64,000 nt of DNA. It comes from Oscillospiraceae bacterium. GTDB taxonomy: Bacteria > Bacillota > Clostridia > Oscillospirales > Acutalibacteraceae. The stretch is from positions 62,001 through 126,000 of the forward strand of contig JAAYOC010000017.1 of assembly GCA_012520505.1 (NCBI GenBank), written 5' to 3'. Below the pieces are notes generated by a model that did no database searches, had not been told where the DNA came from, and saw only the letters and a list, made by a program, of their open reading frames with translations. Numbering within the stretch: position 1 is the first letter of the stretch; each line of letters opens with the position of its first letter. Both the position numbers and the translations under genes were made by a program. Positions 21,744 to 45,434 of the stretch are shown one piece after another.

Positions 21744-22328
21744 TTATTTTAAAGTTCCATCCTCATTAAGTCGTGGAAATAATAATTTATTAAGTGCTAA
21801 TATTCCAATTACCGTGATTATTGTTTCCGGAACCATATATCCTACATTATAAGCGAACGAATATGTAAGGATAGCCTTCAGTGTATTACCATCCGCATAT
21901 TGTTTCCAAACTGTTATGCCGGTTAAAAAATGGCACAAAAATCTAAATAAAGAAACCATAGTAGCACCAAAAGCCATTGATAAATTCCTATTTTTAAAAG
22001 AATTTTTAAAGATTCCCGCAATTCCCAACATGGTAAATGGGAGAATATAATCAATAAACATTATCGCCAAATATGCGGATATAGTCTTTGCATAAGCCAA
22101 GTTTGAAAGTCCAAACATAAGTTGGAACAGCGAGAAAATGAAACCTGCAACAAGTCCCCAAGCCGGTCCAAAAATAAAACTCAGTGCGATAATAGGCACT
22201 TGGCTAAAAAGTGTCACTCCTCCGCCATAGACAAAGAGTGACTCAAATGGTGTGACTACGCTGAGTACAATCGCTATTGCAATAAATAGCGCTGTAACAA
22301 CAAGTCTATACGTGTTGTTTTTTTTCAT
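21744..22328 (-). CDS. thiT: Thiamine ECF transporter S component
   Basis: A 194-residue membrane protein with six hydrophobic segments. It binds thiamine and works with the shared ECF module (EcfA/A'/T), which is not in this window. It resembles ThiT/YuaJ in size, in the segment PIIALSFIFGPAWGLVAGF and in the aromatic YGGGVTLFSQ loop. The TPP riboswitch directly upstream strongly supports thiamine as the substrate. First gene of a minus-strand unit with the TPR protein and a small membrane protein. Confidence 0.9.
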   Translation of the reverse strand: MKKNNTYRLVVTALFIAIAIVLSVVTPFESLFVYGGGVTLFSQVPIIALSFIFGPAWGLVAGFIFSLFQLMFGLSNLAYAKTISAYLAIMFIDYILPFTMLGIAGIFKNSFKNRNLSMAFGATMVSLFRFLCHFLTGITVWKQYADGNTLKAILTYSFAYNVGYMVPETIITVIGILALNKLLFPRLNEDGTLK

Positions 22329-22341
22329 ATTTTTTTCTTCC

Positions 22342-22440
22342 TTTCCTACGCAGGCATTACCCTGATCAGGTTAAATTAAGGGTCATCAGCATTAAACCGC
22401 CAAATCTCAGCCGAAATACATTCAGCGCCCCCGGACGTAT
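22342..22440 (-). promoter_or_regulatory. TPP riboswitch (thi box)
   Basis: On the minus strand the conserved parts appear in order: GGGGGCGC, GGCTGAGA, GATGACCC, AACCTGATCAGGGTAATG and CTGCGTAGG. The element runs straight into the thiT ribosome site (GGAAAGGAAG) with no room for a terminator, so it should act on translation initiation when thiamine pyrophosphate binds. Confidence 0.95.
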
Positions 22441-22502
22441 TAATTTTAACACTCCTGTTCAATGTAAGCAAGACTAAACCGCAAACAATTAAGAATAAAA
22501 AT

Positions 22503-29757: not shown

Positions 29758-30040
29758 GAAAACAAAAATCCTCTGCAGCAGTTATGCCGCAGAGGACGAA
29801 TAATTCGTGGTACCACCCCTGATTCACCATTTCCTCACGAAAATGGCCTTGTCAAGTATCAAACAATACTCTAGCGCTATAACGGGCTCTCCCGGCACCT
29901 CCTACTATTATTTCAGAGGGCAGCTCTCGAAATGAATTCACATTGTAACGTTTGATGTCTTTCACCATCCGACACTTCTCTAAAAAACGTCGTATCAATG
30001 CTACTGGTTTTCGGTCATCACTTTTAATGCGTTTAATTTA
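29758..30040 (-). promoter_or_regulatory. T-box leader with UUC (Phe) specifier
   Basis: On the minus strand: an AGTAG specifier-loop arm, the CATTG/CAATG helix, an AGAGAAGTG motif and apical loop GGATGGTGAAA, then TGAA-TTC-A, where the specifier is TTC. Further on come the T-box sequence AGGGGTGGTACCACG and the terminator stem ATCCTCTGC / GCAGAGGAT with a T run. Uncharged tRNA-Phe should favour the antiterminator and paaK-ACT expression. Confidence 0.9.
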
Positions 30041-40027: not shown

Positions 40028-41488
40028 CTACCCAATCAAGGCACCATTAGCATCAAATCTGTATACCTTACCATCAATAACTTGTCTTCCGGTTACCATA
40101 GTACCGTTTCTATTGAAATAGTACTTTTTACCTGAAATTTGTTTCCAACCAATTGTGAGCCTTGCATTCTCATCAAGGTAGCACCAACCATTACTGTCTT
40201 TCTGCCACTGGTTCTTAACAGCGCGTCCATCTGCACCAACATAGCACCATGTCACTGTGTCTCTAACCCATTTGTTAGTTACCATTATTCCATCTGCATC
40301 AAGGTAGCACCAACCTTTAGAATCTGCAACCCATTTGTTGGTTACCATTCTACCTTCTCTATCAAAATAACTCCAACCTGCTACGTGTTTGAACCACTTG
40401 TTAGTTAGACAACGTCCATCTGCGCCTACATAACACCAGCCTTTTGAATCTCTAACCCACTGATGTTTTGCCATTGCGCCATCATAACCAAGATAGCACC
40501 AACCTTTTGAATCTGACTTCCACTTATTTTTAAGTATAGTTTCATCAGAATTAAAGTAATACCATCTTCCCGAAACTTCCTGCCAGCCGGTACCTTTTAT
40601 TACCAATACATCAAAGAATGCATGTTTACCGGCAATTTCTGCTCTTAAGCAACGTGCAAAACCAGTAGGCCAATTAGTCTCACTAATTTCGCCCTTTCCT
40701 TTAGGTGACGGAGCGAGTGGATCTTCTAAATAAACATACGCATCAAGTCTTTCTGAATAATATCTTCTAATACCTCCTCCTCCTTTTAAGCCTCCCTCTT
40801 CTTCAATTAAAACCTCCGGGCCCCAGCCAGTTGAAGCTTTATAGTAAACTGTAATTGTTAGTGGTAGTGCTTCCTTTATATAGTAAAACTTCGTATTACC
40901 ATAACCATCTTCGTACTCAAAACCGTATCTCGTATCATACTCAAGAATTCCCACTTCAAGCTCTACAGTCATTAACTCAACCGGACTTTCCACTATTTTC
41001 ACCATAAAGCAAACATCAATTTCACCATGATAACCCTCTAACCAAGCATAAACGCTATATTCGTTACCTACAGTCCACTGATTTTCAAAATTTTGTGGGG
41101 AGTTTTCTTGAAAATAAATGTATAAATCAAGTTTTTCCGAATAATCATCTGTACCTGTCAAAACTTCATCCGCATAACCTGTTTCTTCCTTAAACTTTAT
41201 TGTTATGATCTTTTTTAGTTCATCAAAATATTCATAATAAAAATATTCAGGTGTCCTATCTTCCCCGTTTCCTTTTTCATCTCCACCAATATAGTCGCGT
41301 TTCATATAACCGTATCGTAAATCCTTTTCAATCATCGGTTCTACATTAGTTATAGTGATTGAATCAACATCTTCAGGTCTTGGCCCTACCTCTGCATTCG
41401 CAGGAACTGCACTTAACGGCAACATCGACAATACCATTGCAAGTGTTAAAATTAAACTTGCTATTCTTAATTTCCTCATTTTCTTCAT
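40028..41488 (-). CDS. Secreted protein with choline/glucan-type cell-wall-binding repeats
   Basis: A 486-residue exported protein. Signal peptide to about residue 31 (PANA). Residues 45-165 and 170-295 look like two diverged copies of one domain: each has (R)YG(Y/F), an aromatic FYY or FYYI strand, an ETGY or STGW strand, a YSEKLDLYIYF / YSERLDAYVYL strand and a final GEIDVCF / KHAFFDV strand. Residues 300-486 are about eight 20-residue aromatic repeats (GWCYLDADGIMVTNKWV type) that bind teichoic-acid choline or glucans. No enzyme motif was seen. AGGAGG precedes ATG. Confidence 0.85.
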   Translation of the reverse strand: MKKMRKLRIASLILTLAMVLSMLPLSAVPANAEVGPRPEDVDSITITNVEPMIEKDLRYGYMKRDYIGGDEKGNGEDRTPEYFYYEYFDELKKIITIKFKEETGYADEVLTGTDDYSEKLDLYIYFQENSPQNFENQWTVGNEYSVYAWLEGYHGEIDVCFMVKIVESPVELMTVELEVGILEYDTRYGFEYEDGYGNTKFYYIKEALPLTITVYYKASTGWGPEVLIEEEGGLKGGGGIRRYYSERLDAYVYLEDPLAPSPKGKGEISETNWPTGFARCLRAEIAGKHAFFDVLVIKGTGWQEVSGRWYYFNSDETILKNKWKSDSKGWCYLGYDGAMAKHQWVRDSKGWCYVGADGRCLTNKWFKHVAGWSYFDREGRMVTNKWVADSKGWCYLDADGIMVTNKWVRDTVTWCYVGADGRAVKNQWQKDSNGWCYLDENARLTIGWKQISGKKYYFNRNGTMVTGRQVIDGKVYRFDANGALIG

Positions 41489-41723: not shown

Positions 41724-42431
41724 CTATTGATTCTTAAGTCGTTTATCACTCTTTATTGCAAATTTTGTTCCTATACGTTGGAAAATCTCAACTATGATAA
41801 CAAGAAGAACAACTGCAACAACCATTACCAGATATTTATATCTATAATATCCATAAGTAATGGCAATTTTACCAAGACCGCCACCACCAATAATTCCGGA
41901 CATTGCCGAATAACCGAGAATTGTTGTAATTGCAATAGTTGCATTTGAAATAAGACTTGGTATACTTTCCGGAATCATCACTTTTACAATAATTTGAAAC
42001 GGAGATGCTCCCATACTTCTAGCTGCTTCAATAATATTAGGGTCAAGCTCTCTAAGAGAACTTTCAACAAGTCTTGCAATAAATGGAAATGCTGCAATTA
42101 CAAGTGGCACAATTGAAGCTACTGTACCTACAGTTGTTCCAACGATTGCACGGGTTAAAGGAAATACTAAAATCATTAAAATAAGAAATGGAATTGAGCG
42201 AAGAAGGTTAATAAAACCTCCAAGAATCCTCATAAACACATTTGGAAGTGGAAGAATACCGTTTTTTTCTCCTACAACTAAAAGAACTCCTAAAGGTAGG
42301 CCTATGATAATTGCAAAAAGTGTTGAAAGAATTGTTACATAGACTGTTTCCCAAACCGCAAGAGGAATTTCAGTAGATAAAATAAACATGGCTTCATCAA
42401 AAGCTTCTTTTGTGAAAGCATTACTGAGCAT
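41724..42431 (-). CDS. metI: Methionine ABC transporter permease
   Basis: A 235-residue permease with five membrane segments. The EAA loop is EAARSMGASPFQIIVKVMIPES, contacting MetN. Its ATG overlaps the last 11 bases of metN, so translation is coupled. With MetN and MetQ it imports D/L-methionine or a close analogue. Confidence 0.93.
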   Translation of the reverse strand: MLSNAFTKEAFDEAMFILSTEIPLAVWETVYVTILSTLFAIIIGLPLGVLLVVGEKNGILPLPNVFMRILGGFINLLRSIPFLILMILVFPLTRAIVGTTVGTVASIVPLVIAAFPFIARLVESSLRELDPNIIEAARSMGASPFQIIVKVMIPESIPSLISNATIAITTILGYSAMSGIIGGGGLGKIAITYGYYRYKYLVMVVAVVLLVIIVEIFQRIGTKFAIKSDKRLKNQ

Positions 42432-43434
42432 CTTCGAAAACCTCCTCTACAATTACATCTTCAACTGATTCAAGATATTCTTTTGCAATAATCATATCTT
42501 CCTTGCCACCCATAATACCAAGAAGCATATTTCCATATGCTTTCTCTCCAATACTTTTTGTGTTTGCACCAAGAATTGAAGCTTCTATTCCTTTGTCCTT
42601 TGCAAGTTGTGCAATTAACGGACGTTCTGTTGCAATAGCTCCGTTAAATACCACTCTTATTCTGTGTTCACCCTCACGTATTGCTAGAACTTCAGGGTCG
42701 CCATCAGGAAAAACAAGATGTCTTGCAGCAGCAGATTTTGGATGTGAAAAGATATCGGAAACTTCTCCTTCCTCAACTACAGAACCATTCTCTAAAATTG
42801 CAACTCTGCTACAAATTCTTTCAATTACAGACATTTGGTGAGTAATAACAATACAGGTAATTCCCAATGTTCTATTTATATCCTGTATAAGTTCAAGGAT
42901 AGAATGAGTCGTTTTTGGGTCAAGTGCTGAAGTCGCTTCATCACACAGTAAAACTTTGGGGTCAGTCGCAAGTGCTCTTGCAATTGCAACACGCTGTTGT
43001 TGTCCACCTGATAATTGAGCCGGATATGCATTTGCTTTATCTAAAAGACCTACAATTTCAAGAAGCTCCATCGCTCTTTTTTTCGCTTCACTTTTCTTAA
43101 TTCCCACCAATTCAAGTGGAAAACATACATTTTTTAAGCAAGTGCGTTGCATAAGTAAATTGAAACTTTGAAATATCATCGTAACCTTTTTTCTCATGTC
43201 ACGAAGATCTTTTTCAGAAAGCGCACCTACATCAACACCGTCTATTAAGACAGTTCCTTCTGTAGGACGTTCCAACATATTTATGCAACGTACCAACGTA
43301 CTCTTTCCTGCACCGCTCATTCCAATAATTCCATATATTGAACCGTTTGGAATAGTTATATTCACATTCCGTAACGCATGAACTTCATCGTCAGCGCCAA
43401 TAAATCTTTTAGAAAGATTTACAATCTCAATCAT
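42421..43434 (-). CDS. metN: Methionine ABC transporter ATP-binding protein
   Basis: A 337-residue ATPase: Walker A GMSGAGKST, Q-loop IFQSFNLL, signature LSGGQQQR, Walker B VLLCDEATSALD, then a C-terminal NIL domain (about 260-337) that in known MetN proteins binds Met and inhibits transport. The start codon directly abuts a 22-bp tandem repeat whose last copy supplies the GGAGG ribosome site. Confidence 0.94.
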   Translation of the reverse strand: MIEIVNLSKRFIGADDEVHALRNVNITIPNGSIYGIIGMSGAGKSTLVRCINMLERPTEGTVLIDGVDVGALSEKDLRDMRKKVTMIFQSFNLLMQRTCLKNVCFPLELVGIKKSEAKKRAMELLEIVGLLDKANAYPAQLSGGQQQRVAIARALATDPKVLLCDEATSALDPKTTHSILELIQDINRTLGITCIVITHQMSVIERICSRVAILENGSVVEEGEVSDIFSHPKSAAARHLVFPDGDPEVLAIREGEHRIRVVFNGAIATERPLIAQLAKDKGIEASILGANTKSIGEKAYGNMLLGIMGGKEDMIIAKEYLESVEDVIVEEVFEDAQ

Positions 43435-43522
43435 TCTAATATGCCTCCACAGAAAATCTGATATGTCACCACAGAAAATCTAATATGCTTCCACAAAAAA
43501 TCTAATATGCCGCCACAGAAAA
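43435..43522. repeat. Four exact-length 22-bp tandem repeats at the metN start
   Basis: Units at 43435, 43457, 43479 and 43501, each 22 bases and together 88 bases. They begin TCTAATATG, TCTGATATG, TCTAATATG and TCTAATATG and end CCACAGAAAA (CCACAAAAAA in unit 3). On the coding strand the three bases after GTGG that vary make the Shine-Dalgarno: GGAGG in the unit touching the metN ATG, but GGTGA, GGAAG and GGCGG in the others. Confidence 0.95.
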
Positions 43523-43557
43523 TGCCGACTGCCCACTATGAGCAGTCGGCATTTTTT
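43519..43557 (-). terminator. Hairpin between metQ and metN
   Basis: Perfect 14-bp stem AAAATGCCGACTGC / GCAGTCGGCATTTT with a 9-base loop, directly after the metQ stop. The T run on the minus strand is short (TTTTCTG), so it may partly terminate and make more MetQ than MetN/MetI. Confidence 0.75.
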
Positions 43558-43562
43558 AATAA

Positions 43563-44411
43563 CTATTTAGCCTTAATTGCATCGAGAGATGTCTGTTTTC
43601 CACCATAAATACCCATTGGTTCAACGTGAATTGCAGCAATTGAAACTACTTTTGTTCCATTTTCTTTATTGAAATCTTCAAGATATGGAAGATGTTGAAA
43701 ATAGTTAGCATCCACTTCGCCCGAGTCAACAACATTATTTGGCTGTACATAATCTGTAAATTCCTTAATTTCAAGAATGATTTCTTTTTCAGCAAGGATT
43801 TCTTTTGCAACTGCAAGAATTTCAGCATGAGGTGTTGGACTTGCTGCTACCGTAATTTTCTTACCCTTAAGAGCAGCATAATCAACTGATTTGTCGAAAC
43901 CATCTGTTGGATTTTCAACAACTCCAAGAATTTCACCGTTATATTTTTCTTCTATGTAGTCTGCTACCTTCTGTGAAGAAACAGCCGCTATGAGAGCTTT
44001 TGCCCAATCAGCTTTTTCATTACCTTCCTTAACACAGATAATGTTAGCATAATTTGAAAATGCGCCTTCAACATCAAGTGCATTTTTAGGACTAAGTCCC
44101 GCTTCAATTGCATAATTTGAATTGATAACTGCATAGTCAACGTCCTGAAGAACGTTTGGAAGCTGAGCTGCTTCTACTTCTTTAATCTCAATACCATAAG
44201 GATTTTCTACAATGTCAGCCTTTGTTGCTGTAATGCCCGCTCCTTCTTTAAGTTTAATGAGACCCATGTTTTCAAGAAGAATCAAAGCTCTTGCTTCATT
44301 TGTTGTGTCATTTGGTACTGCTATTGTAATTGGTGCTTTCTTATCTGCTCCACAAGCAGCAAAAGAGAGTAGGAATACAAAGCAAAGAATAATTGAAATT
44401 ATTTTTTTCAT
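43563..44411 (-). CDS. metQ: Methionine-binding lipoprotein MetQ with circularly permuted domain order
   Basis: A 282-residue substrate-binding lipoprotein of the NlpA/MetQ family. Signal peptide with lipobox FAAC (Cys20). Residues 28-165 (ITIAVPNDTTNEARAL, GLIKLKEGAGITAT, DIVENP, EAAQLP, YAVINSNYA, EEKYNGE) match what is normally the C-terminal half. A linker (166-183) leads to residues 184-282 (ASPTPHAEIL, FTDYVQPN, GEVDANYFQHLPYL, IHVEPMGIY, ending TSLDAIKAK), normally the N-terminal half. In ordinary MetQ the SLDEL segment runs directly into VAVPND; here these are the two protein ends. All blocks are present once, so a working fold is plausible. Neighbours metN and metI are normal. Confidence 0.92.
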   Translation of the reverse strand: MKKIISIILCFVFLLSFAACGADKKAPITIAVPNDTTNEARALILLENMGLIKLKEGAGITATKADIVENPYGIEIKEVEAAQLPNVLQDVDYAVINSNYAIEAGLSPKNALDVEGAFSNYANIICVKEGNEKADWAKALIAAVSSQKVADYIEEKYNGEILGVVENPTDGFDKSVDYAALKGKKITVAASPTPHAEILAVAKEILAEKEIILEIKEFTDYVQPNNVVDSGEVDANYFQHLPYLEDFNKENGTKVVSIAAIHVEPMGIYGGKQTSLDAIKAK

Positions 44412-44501: not shown

Positions 44502-45434
44502 TTAATTATTCACATACATTGGAGTAGATAAGTAACGCTCACCTGAATCAGGCAAAATTGCTACTATATTTTTTCCTTCATTTTCAGGGCATTTTGCAAG
44601 TTCTGTTGCAACATGAAGAGCTGCTCCTGATGTTATTCCTACGAGAACACCTTCACTACTTGCAAAAAGTCTAGCCGCAGCATAAGCTTGCTCATCTGTT
44701 ACCGTCACTATTTCATCAATAATCTCTTTATTTAAAATCTCCGGAATAAAGTTTGCGCCTATTCCTTGAAGGCCATGTGGTCCGGATTGTCCTTTAGATA
44801 AAAGTGGTGATAACGCAGGTTCAATAGCAACAATCTTTATATTTGGATTTTTAGATTTTAAAAATTCACCAATTCCTGTAATTGTACCACCTGTACCAAA
44901 TCCTGCTACTAATATATCTATATTTCCTTCAAGATCTTCATAAATCTCCGGTCCCGTAGTATCAAAATGAGCTTTTGGATTTGCAGGATTTACAAATTGT
45001 CCCACTATAATTGAATCTGGAGTTTTTTCCTTGATTTCCTCAGCCTTTTTTATTGCTCCTCGCATACCGTCACAGCTTAAAGTCAAAATGACTTTTGCGC
45101 CATATGCCTTTATCAAGGCTCTGCGCTCAAAGGACATATTATCCGGCATAACAATAATTACTTTATACCCTTTTGCACTTGCAATAGCAGCAAGACCAAT
45201 ACCTGTGTTTCCGGAAGTTGGCTCAATTAATGTATCTCCCGGTTTCAAAAGACCTGCATCCTCTGCCTCTTCTATCATTGAAAGAACTGCTCTGTCTTTT
45301 ATTGAACCGGCAGGATTAAAACATTCCAGTTTTGCATAAACTTTTGCTAAAGCACCTGTTTTTTTATTATATTTTTGTGGTTCTAAGAGAGGAGTATTGC
45401 CAATTAATTCTTCTATCCCCTTAAAAATCATCAT
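44502..45434 (-). CDS. cysK: Cysteine synthase (O-acetylserine sulfhydrylase)
   Basis: A 310-residue PLP enzyme forming cysteine from O-acetylserine and sulfide. Seen: IGNTPLL, PLP lysine in NPAGSIKDRAVL, SGNTGIGLA (substrate loop), the glycine phosphate loop GFGTGGTITG and ITSGAA near the end. It lies 90 bases upstream of metQ on the same strand, grouping cysteine synthesis with methionine uptake. No SAM or T-box leader is visible in either upstream gap. Confidence 0.93.
   Translation of the reverse strand: MMIFKGIEELIGNTPLLEPQKYNKKTGALAKVYAKLECFNPAGSIKDRAVLSMIEEAEDAGLLKPGDTLIEPTSGNTGIGLAAIASAKGYKVIIVMPDNMSFERRALIKAYGAKVILTLSCDGMRGAIKKAEEIKEKTPDSIIVGQFVNPANPKAHFDTTGPEIYEDLEGNIDILVAGFGTGGTITGIGEFLKSKNPNIKIVAIEPALSPLLSKGQSGPHGLQGIGANFIPEILNKEIIDEIVTVTDEQAYAAARLFASSEGVLVGITSGAALHVATELAKCPENEGKNIVAILPDSGERYLSTPMYVNN

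Follow-up and report, generated by a model that had tools for sequence, protein, structure and literature searches.

The MetQ/NlpA lipoprotein encoded in the window (the whole 64,000-nucleotide stretch of DNA analyzed here) is a circular permutation, in which the second half of the canonical protein precedes the first. This assignment is based on the order of the homologous segments, the order of secondary structure elements in a structure model, a half-length collinear superposition contrasting with the full-length superposition of a canonical control, and the presence of the same arrangement in many assemblies. The gene product is very probably a functional methionine-binding protein, anchored by a lipid and serving a MetNI importer, with a chain that has been circularly permuted, probably on at least 2 occasions.

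Order of the two halves

The permuted gene and its neighbors comprise the following features:

43563..44411, minus strand: permuted metQ gene, 282 amino acids plus stop (ORF calling, profile and PDB matches)
44352..44411, minus strand: signal peptide and lipobox, residues 1–20, with the lipid-acceptor Cys20 (FAAC), read from the sequence; Cys20 is invariant in 20 aligned permuted proteins
44331..44351, minus strand: short tether, residues 21–27 (comparison of lipobox-to-lobe offsets)
43926..44330, minus strand: residues 28–162, second half of canonical MetQ (lobe 2 and the stretch ending canonical MetQ), with R41, N97, N99, and N123 (homology, superposition, motif mapping)
43863..43925, minus strand: residues 163–183, new linker bridging the former C- and N-termini, modeled with a short helix at 178–181 (alignment, model)
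43566..43862, minus strand: residues 184–282, first half of canonical MetQ (lobe 1 and hinge strand), ending in TSLDAIKAK, with Y221, F238, H240, and Y243 (homology, model, motif mapping)
42421..43434, minus strand: metN, ATPase with a C-terminal NIL domain (profile matches)
41724..42431, minus strand: metI, permease (profile matches)
44502..45434, minus strand: PLP-dependent enzyme with a PALP domain, upstream of metQ on the same strand (Pfam; cysteine-synthase-like by reading only)

The Pfam profile Lipoprotein_9 (PF03180) matched the ORF with an E-value of 5.5e-80 and 268.4 bits (cut-off 27), split into 2 stretches, the better of which aligned residues 29–162 to profile positions 99–233 of 236. 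When compared to the MetQ structure 4ib2, residues 30–162 of the ORF corresponded to chain positions 112–249 and residues 183–280 to positions 10–107, that is, in reversed order; the order was likewise swapped in the printed alignments to 4k3f and 4qhq, and 2 matched stretches were found in all 22 PDB sequences listed. These matches bear out the claim of the preliminary description, made from the sequence alone, that the C-lobe half precedes the N-lobe half: the halves aligned separately to canonical MetQ in reversed order, with no collinear match of both, and the residue ranges given there (28–165 and 184–282) were correct. Each half is present once, behind a single signal peptide, and the ORF contains no in-frame stop. 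A fragment and a tandem fusion, both already discounted in that description, were rejected on the basis of the single copy of each half, the swapped alignment, and lobe-profile scoring (see below). Canonical MetQs carry the first half before the second and are collinear with the solved structures, which the window ORF is not; its homologous segments are rotated, each occurs once, and close canonical relatives exist, as in a naturally circularly permuted protein. The ORF fell below the NCBIfam cut-offs for MetQ/NlpA (TIGR00363/NF008285; 157.2 bits versus 228.85 and 160.5 versus 374, in 2 stretches), which we attribute to the reversed order splitting the profile match. Profile annotation can hide chain order.

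The AlphaFold2 model, built with 15 permuted sequences, reached a pLDDT of 83.8 and a pTM of 0.76, with weaker spots at residues 221–230 (mean pLDDT 60) and the 5 models spanning 70.3–83.8; the control, the canonical sister protein L053, reached 88.3 and 0.81. Seventeen of the 19 listed secondary structure elements of the control have a listed counterpart in the permuted model, in rotated order, and the remaining 2 (E80–83 and H208–211) appear as shorter pieces in its DSSP line. Both putative hinge strands are kept (E123–128 and E266–270, matching E223–229 and E111–115 of L053). With a collinear aligner, the permuted model matched MetQ-family rows over 137–142 residues in 18 of 21 cases and 128–150 in all 21 (Z 11.7–15.3), whereas the L053 model matched MetQ rows over 222–250 residues (Z 25.1–33.4). 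The superposition on solved MetQs proposed in the preliminary description thus covered about 140 residues, against 238 in the best row of the canonical control (Z 33.4); because it was collinear only, the half-length matches say nothing on the relative position of the lobes. The best structural neighbors of the permuted model were MetQs, plus others such as OpuAC, to which it could be fitted loosely from end to end (2b4m and 2b4l; 217–218 residues, rmsd 5.8–6.0), as expected if both lobes are topologically alike.

Distribution and number of origins

To compare chain orders, ORFs from 268 loci were scored with separate lobe profiles, yielding 190 canonical (N-C) and 97 permuted (C-N) ORFs and 2 single-lobe ORFs; removal of identical and short-lobe rows left 179 canonical and 81 permuted sequences. 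The fetched loci thus hold at least 81 distinct permuted and at least 179 canonical MetQs, numbers that imply no prevalence. A search of 60 genomes, including that of the window, recovered 6 further full-length permuted MetQs, and a scan of species genomes found 14 of 80 kept loci to be permuted, among them that of the isolate Slackia faecicanis DSM 17537 (L044). For later draws, the query was a profile built from 20 permuted proteins; as the draws overlap and thresholds differ, the counts are not prevalences. Besides the genome of the window, permuted full-length matches were found in at least 18 of 250 genomes of its family (at least 50 with any match at 1e-15; one fragment, in G219, left uncounted), at least 18 of 295 genomes of its order (at least 81 with any match, 1e-20), and at least 15 of 341 genomes of its class (at least 130, 1e-35), with at least 1 new permuted genome among 348 of its phylum (at least 146, 1e-43). 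The order of Slackia, which we take to be Coriobacteriales in GTDB, contributed at least 12 of 197 genomes, Slackia included (at least 115 with any match, 1e-30), whereas among 198 genomes of its phylum a full-length match was seen in Slackia alone (7 with a match at 1e-50). In G1260, a genome of 3.9 Mb, permuted MetQ is encoded on a contig of 3.95 Mb. Permuted MetQ is widespread, carried by many gut bacteria, and recurrent rather than a single oddity. Of the 2 patterns that the preliminary description had suggested seeking in relatives, the same order was therefore found in many genomes, whereas a duplicated, fused N-C-N-C intermediate was absent from the 289 ORFs scored with the lobe profiles.

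Several arrangements were seen in passing. The genome G1254, from Slackia's order, carries 2 permuted metQ copies (L238 and L261), the latter without a metN or metI match in the fetched stretch. A 577-aa lipoprotein ORF of G286 (L263, 2370–4100) appears by eye to have an amino-acid-type binding protein fused before a canonical MetQ, and 2 further genomes of its genus, G346 and G395, encode MetQ in ORFs of similar length.

The permuted genes form a Clostridia-centered clade of 66, spanning many families (named after the records; its member G897 does not belong to the class of the window), and a group of 13 in Slackia's order, nested among different canonical MetQs. We consider it highly probable that MetQ was permuted at least twice, in the same loop. 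The alternative, a single permutation followed by horizontal transfer between Clostridia and Slackia's order, with later divergence blurring the tree, appears unlikely. It would account for the identical break point, which in the 31 permuted rows printed lies between the SLDxL segment, now the C-terminus, and IAVPND, now the start of the mature lobe, and the spread of the Clostridia-centered clade across many families suggests transfer. The first tree (79 rows, 27 of them permuted, 12 of which represent the 66 Clostridial sequences; the bootstrap had not settled) required 4 changes of order, 3 of them forced by well-supported branches, and leaves some room for a single origin: a single clade of both permuted groups was 64.7 log units worse, with a borderline p-AU of 0.054. 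Trees of single lobes, which are weak, pointed in the same direction as the full trees and did not reject one clade (p-AU 0.163 and 0.31). However, in a second, denser tree of 61 rows, from which 6 long-branch rows and a divergent pair were dropped and to which canonical rows near each group were added, one clade was 78 log units worse and was rejected (p-AU 0.0016), in a test weakened by the permuted groups having been defined after inspection of the first tree.

Sequence identity, linkers, and gene order also argue against a single origin. Group A of Slackia's order shares 70% to 72% identity with 4 canonical MetQs from the same order, compared with 55.6% with the Clostridial permuted set. 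In the permuted proteins, the old C-terminus (YxGAVV) leads through the linker into the old first strand (TITVAASPxPHAEIL), and the linkers are unrelated in sequence between the permuted groups; measured between profile edges, their median length is 22 residues for the Clostridia (64 rows) and 18 for Slackia's order (13 rows). Each group shares its gene order with its own nearest canonical relatives. In the Clostridial clade, the gene order is metQ-metN-metI at 61 of the 66 permuted loci and metQ-metN at 4, and the remaining locus has metQ only; the canonical relative closest to the clade, L053, is also metQ-metN-metI, and the next, L220, is metI-metQ. By contrast, 12 of the 13 permuted loci of Slackia's order read metN-metI-metQ (the other is metQ alone), as do the 6 near canonical relatives examined in that order, where other canonical loci have metQ first (8/21).

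Within Slackia's order, a single clade of the 13 permuted sequences was not rejected in either tree (p-AU 0.588 in the first and 0.333 in the second). A canonical MetQ, L257 (G1207), grouped with part of this set (support 90/81 and 83/87), reflecting either separate origins or reversion to the canonical arrangement. The divergent pair consists of 2 permuted ORFs with low scores, L258 (G800) and L259 (G1284), whose linkers have a median length of 46 residues; they stood apart on a very long branch in the first tree, and in a quick tree holding them with either permuted group gave a higher likelihood than an unconstrained search (p-AU 0.915 and 0.864). A search with L259 of 196 genomes from the window's class, run without a positive control, returned nothing at 1e-45.

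The usual route to circular permutation is tandem duplication, fusion, and trimming, and the permuted metQ would have arisen in this way, probably at least twice, in Clostridia and in Slackia's order. Separate canonical metQ genes are neighbors in Streptomyces, in Campylobacter, in G649 (L266), and, within Slackia's order, in G1352 (L246) and G1261 (L240, the first copy cut by the end of the stretch). Up to 3 canonical metQ genes occur in a row in L266, L050, L052, L246, and many Streptomyces loci, some with very short gaps. No canonical metQ was found next to a permuted gene in the stretches fetched.

Relation to known binding proteins

The window protein shares with canonical MetQ/NlpA (4ib2, 4k3f, Escherichia coli MetQ 4yah, and Neisseria MetQ 6cva/6dzx) both halves of PF03180, the ligand site residues, the lipobox, and the metNI partners, but differs in the opposite order of the halves, the new linker and termini, the shorter tether, and the attachment of the lipid to the opposite lobe. 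Naturally permuted binding proteins have been described before. TpMglB-2 (Tp0684) of Treponema pallidum has been proposed as a “Type Ic” permuted glucose-binding lipoprotein, for which the authors suggest a link between permutation and membrane tethering (PMC4990184). Like the window MetQ, it is a natural permutation of a tethered solute-binding protein and has relatives in gut Gram-positives. It still binds its ligand and changes shape, as the window MetQ would, whereas its Type I sugar-binding fold belongs to another family, and the comparison drawn by its authors is to E. coli MglB (PMC4990184). Circular-permutation relations have also been reported by CPSARST among glycine betaine-binding proteins, molybdate-binding proteins, and CysB, again binding-protein folds in permuted order (PMC2395249). 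Those cases are structure-based and concern proteins less than 24% identical (PMC2395249), whereas the MetQ case falls within one family, at about 60% to 72% identity, and is probably recurrent. The preliminary description knew of no published naturally permuted MetQ/NlpA lipoprotein, and none was found in the open-licence PMC literature either. The binding-protein permutations that we did find in print were recognized between distant proteins, whereas permuted and canonical MetQs are close pairs with common partners and a common ligand site. The seemingly repeated origin and the close natural pairs make the mechanism, cost, and selection of permutation directly testable; permuted MetQ lets one ask, in a natural setting, how much rewiring a protein chain tolerates, and it supplies naturally occurring templates for sensors based on permuted binding proteins.

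Ligand site, membrane anchor, and locus

In Neisseria MetQ, methionine is contacted by R156, N213, and N238 from one domain and Y81, F98, H100, and Y103 from the other (PMC6739813). Mapping by motif, with Neisseria N213 taken as N97, places the counterparts in the window protein at R41, N97, N123, Y221, F238, H240, and Y243. All are kept in the 81 permuted sequences, apart from a single F238V (80/81), and N99 is kept in 79 of the 81. Of the 97 permuted ORFs, some of which were fetched twice, 91 have both a metN and a metI match in the fetched stretch, 4 have metN only, and 2 have neither. In the window, profile matches confirm the metN and metI that had been noted beside metQ from the sequence; both lie on the same strand as metQ. 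Ten chosen permuted pairs gave dN/dS ratios of 0.014–0.148, with dS above 1, near saturation, in 2 of them; permuted metQ is under purifying selection.

The lipobox pattern, which predicts lipidation, is present in 79 of the 81 distinct permuted ORFs. The median offset from the lipobox cysteine to the first lobe profile is 7 residues in these 79 and 17 in 168 canonical sequences, a comparison that leaves out the 2 permuted and 11 canonical rows without a recognized lipobox. That the anchor moves to the other lobe, as anticipated in the preliminary description, follows from the chain order. In Neisseria, MetNI is fully stimulated only by lipidated MetQ, and MetI is present in 2 copies (PMC8416018). 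From the site residues, the metNI neighbors, the dN/dS ratios, and the Neisseria MetQ data, we infer a working methionine importer with a relocated anchor.

The break lies in the loop following the hinge strand that connects lobe 1 with lobe 2 (canonical SLDxL-DGA-|IAVPND). The mature protein begins at the first strand of lobe 2, 7 residues past the lipid cysteine, and would reach lobe 1 via the old second hinge; a new linker of about 21 residues joins the old C- and N-termini and leads into lobe 1, after which the chain would return via the old first hinge and end. As both hinge crossings would survive, the protein may close on methionine as ordinary MetQ does and deliver it to MetI, with a shorter lipid tether, now presumably on lobe 2. 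In type II binding proteins, the 2 lobes are pseudo-equivalent, and the permutation may be tolerated because of this and of the 2 identical MetI subunits, such that either lobe might bear the anchor. Docking on MetI may be little changed, because MetI is present as 2 copies, and we hypothesize that the symmetric permease makes the anchor move harmless. A more speculative proposal, which we regard as rather doubtful, is that MetQ was permuted at least 3 times, always in the same loop, since a homodimeric permease lets either lobe bear the anchor, and that permutation, which puts the anchor on lobe 2 and shortens the tether by about 10 residues, is selected for and alters the geometry of methionine hand-over to MetI.

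The upstream PALP enzyme makes another sulfur compound thinkable as the ligand, and the permuted protein might then have left methionine import for another ligand or job. The conserved contact residues and the adjacent metN and metI make this improbable, as does the window's own genome, where the permuted metQ is the sole MetQ match (one other, of 21.5 bits, covers query residues 2–65, the signal-peptide end). An assembly or binning artefact, conceivable as the source genome is a draft of 116 contigs, was rejected and has a negligible probability, given the same order in many separate assemblies, in the cultured S. faecicanis isolate, and on the 3.95-Mb contig of G1260.

Rfam searches at the gathering threshold gave no match at metQ. 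Directly before the metN start, positions 43435–43523 hold 4 tandem copies of a 22-bp unit, TCTAATATGCCTCCACAGAAAA, and the minus-strand unit nearest metN contains GGAGG, which by eye resembles a ribosome-binding site. A terminator-like hairpin (43521–43552), also noted by eye, lies between metQ and metN. Elsewhere on the minus strand of the window, Rfam identified a T-box leader (29789–30027) and a TPP riboswitch (22325–22442), and a 486-aa secreted-looking ORF (40028–41488) carries, by eye, tandem tryptophan-rich, cell-wall-binding-like repeats.
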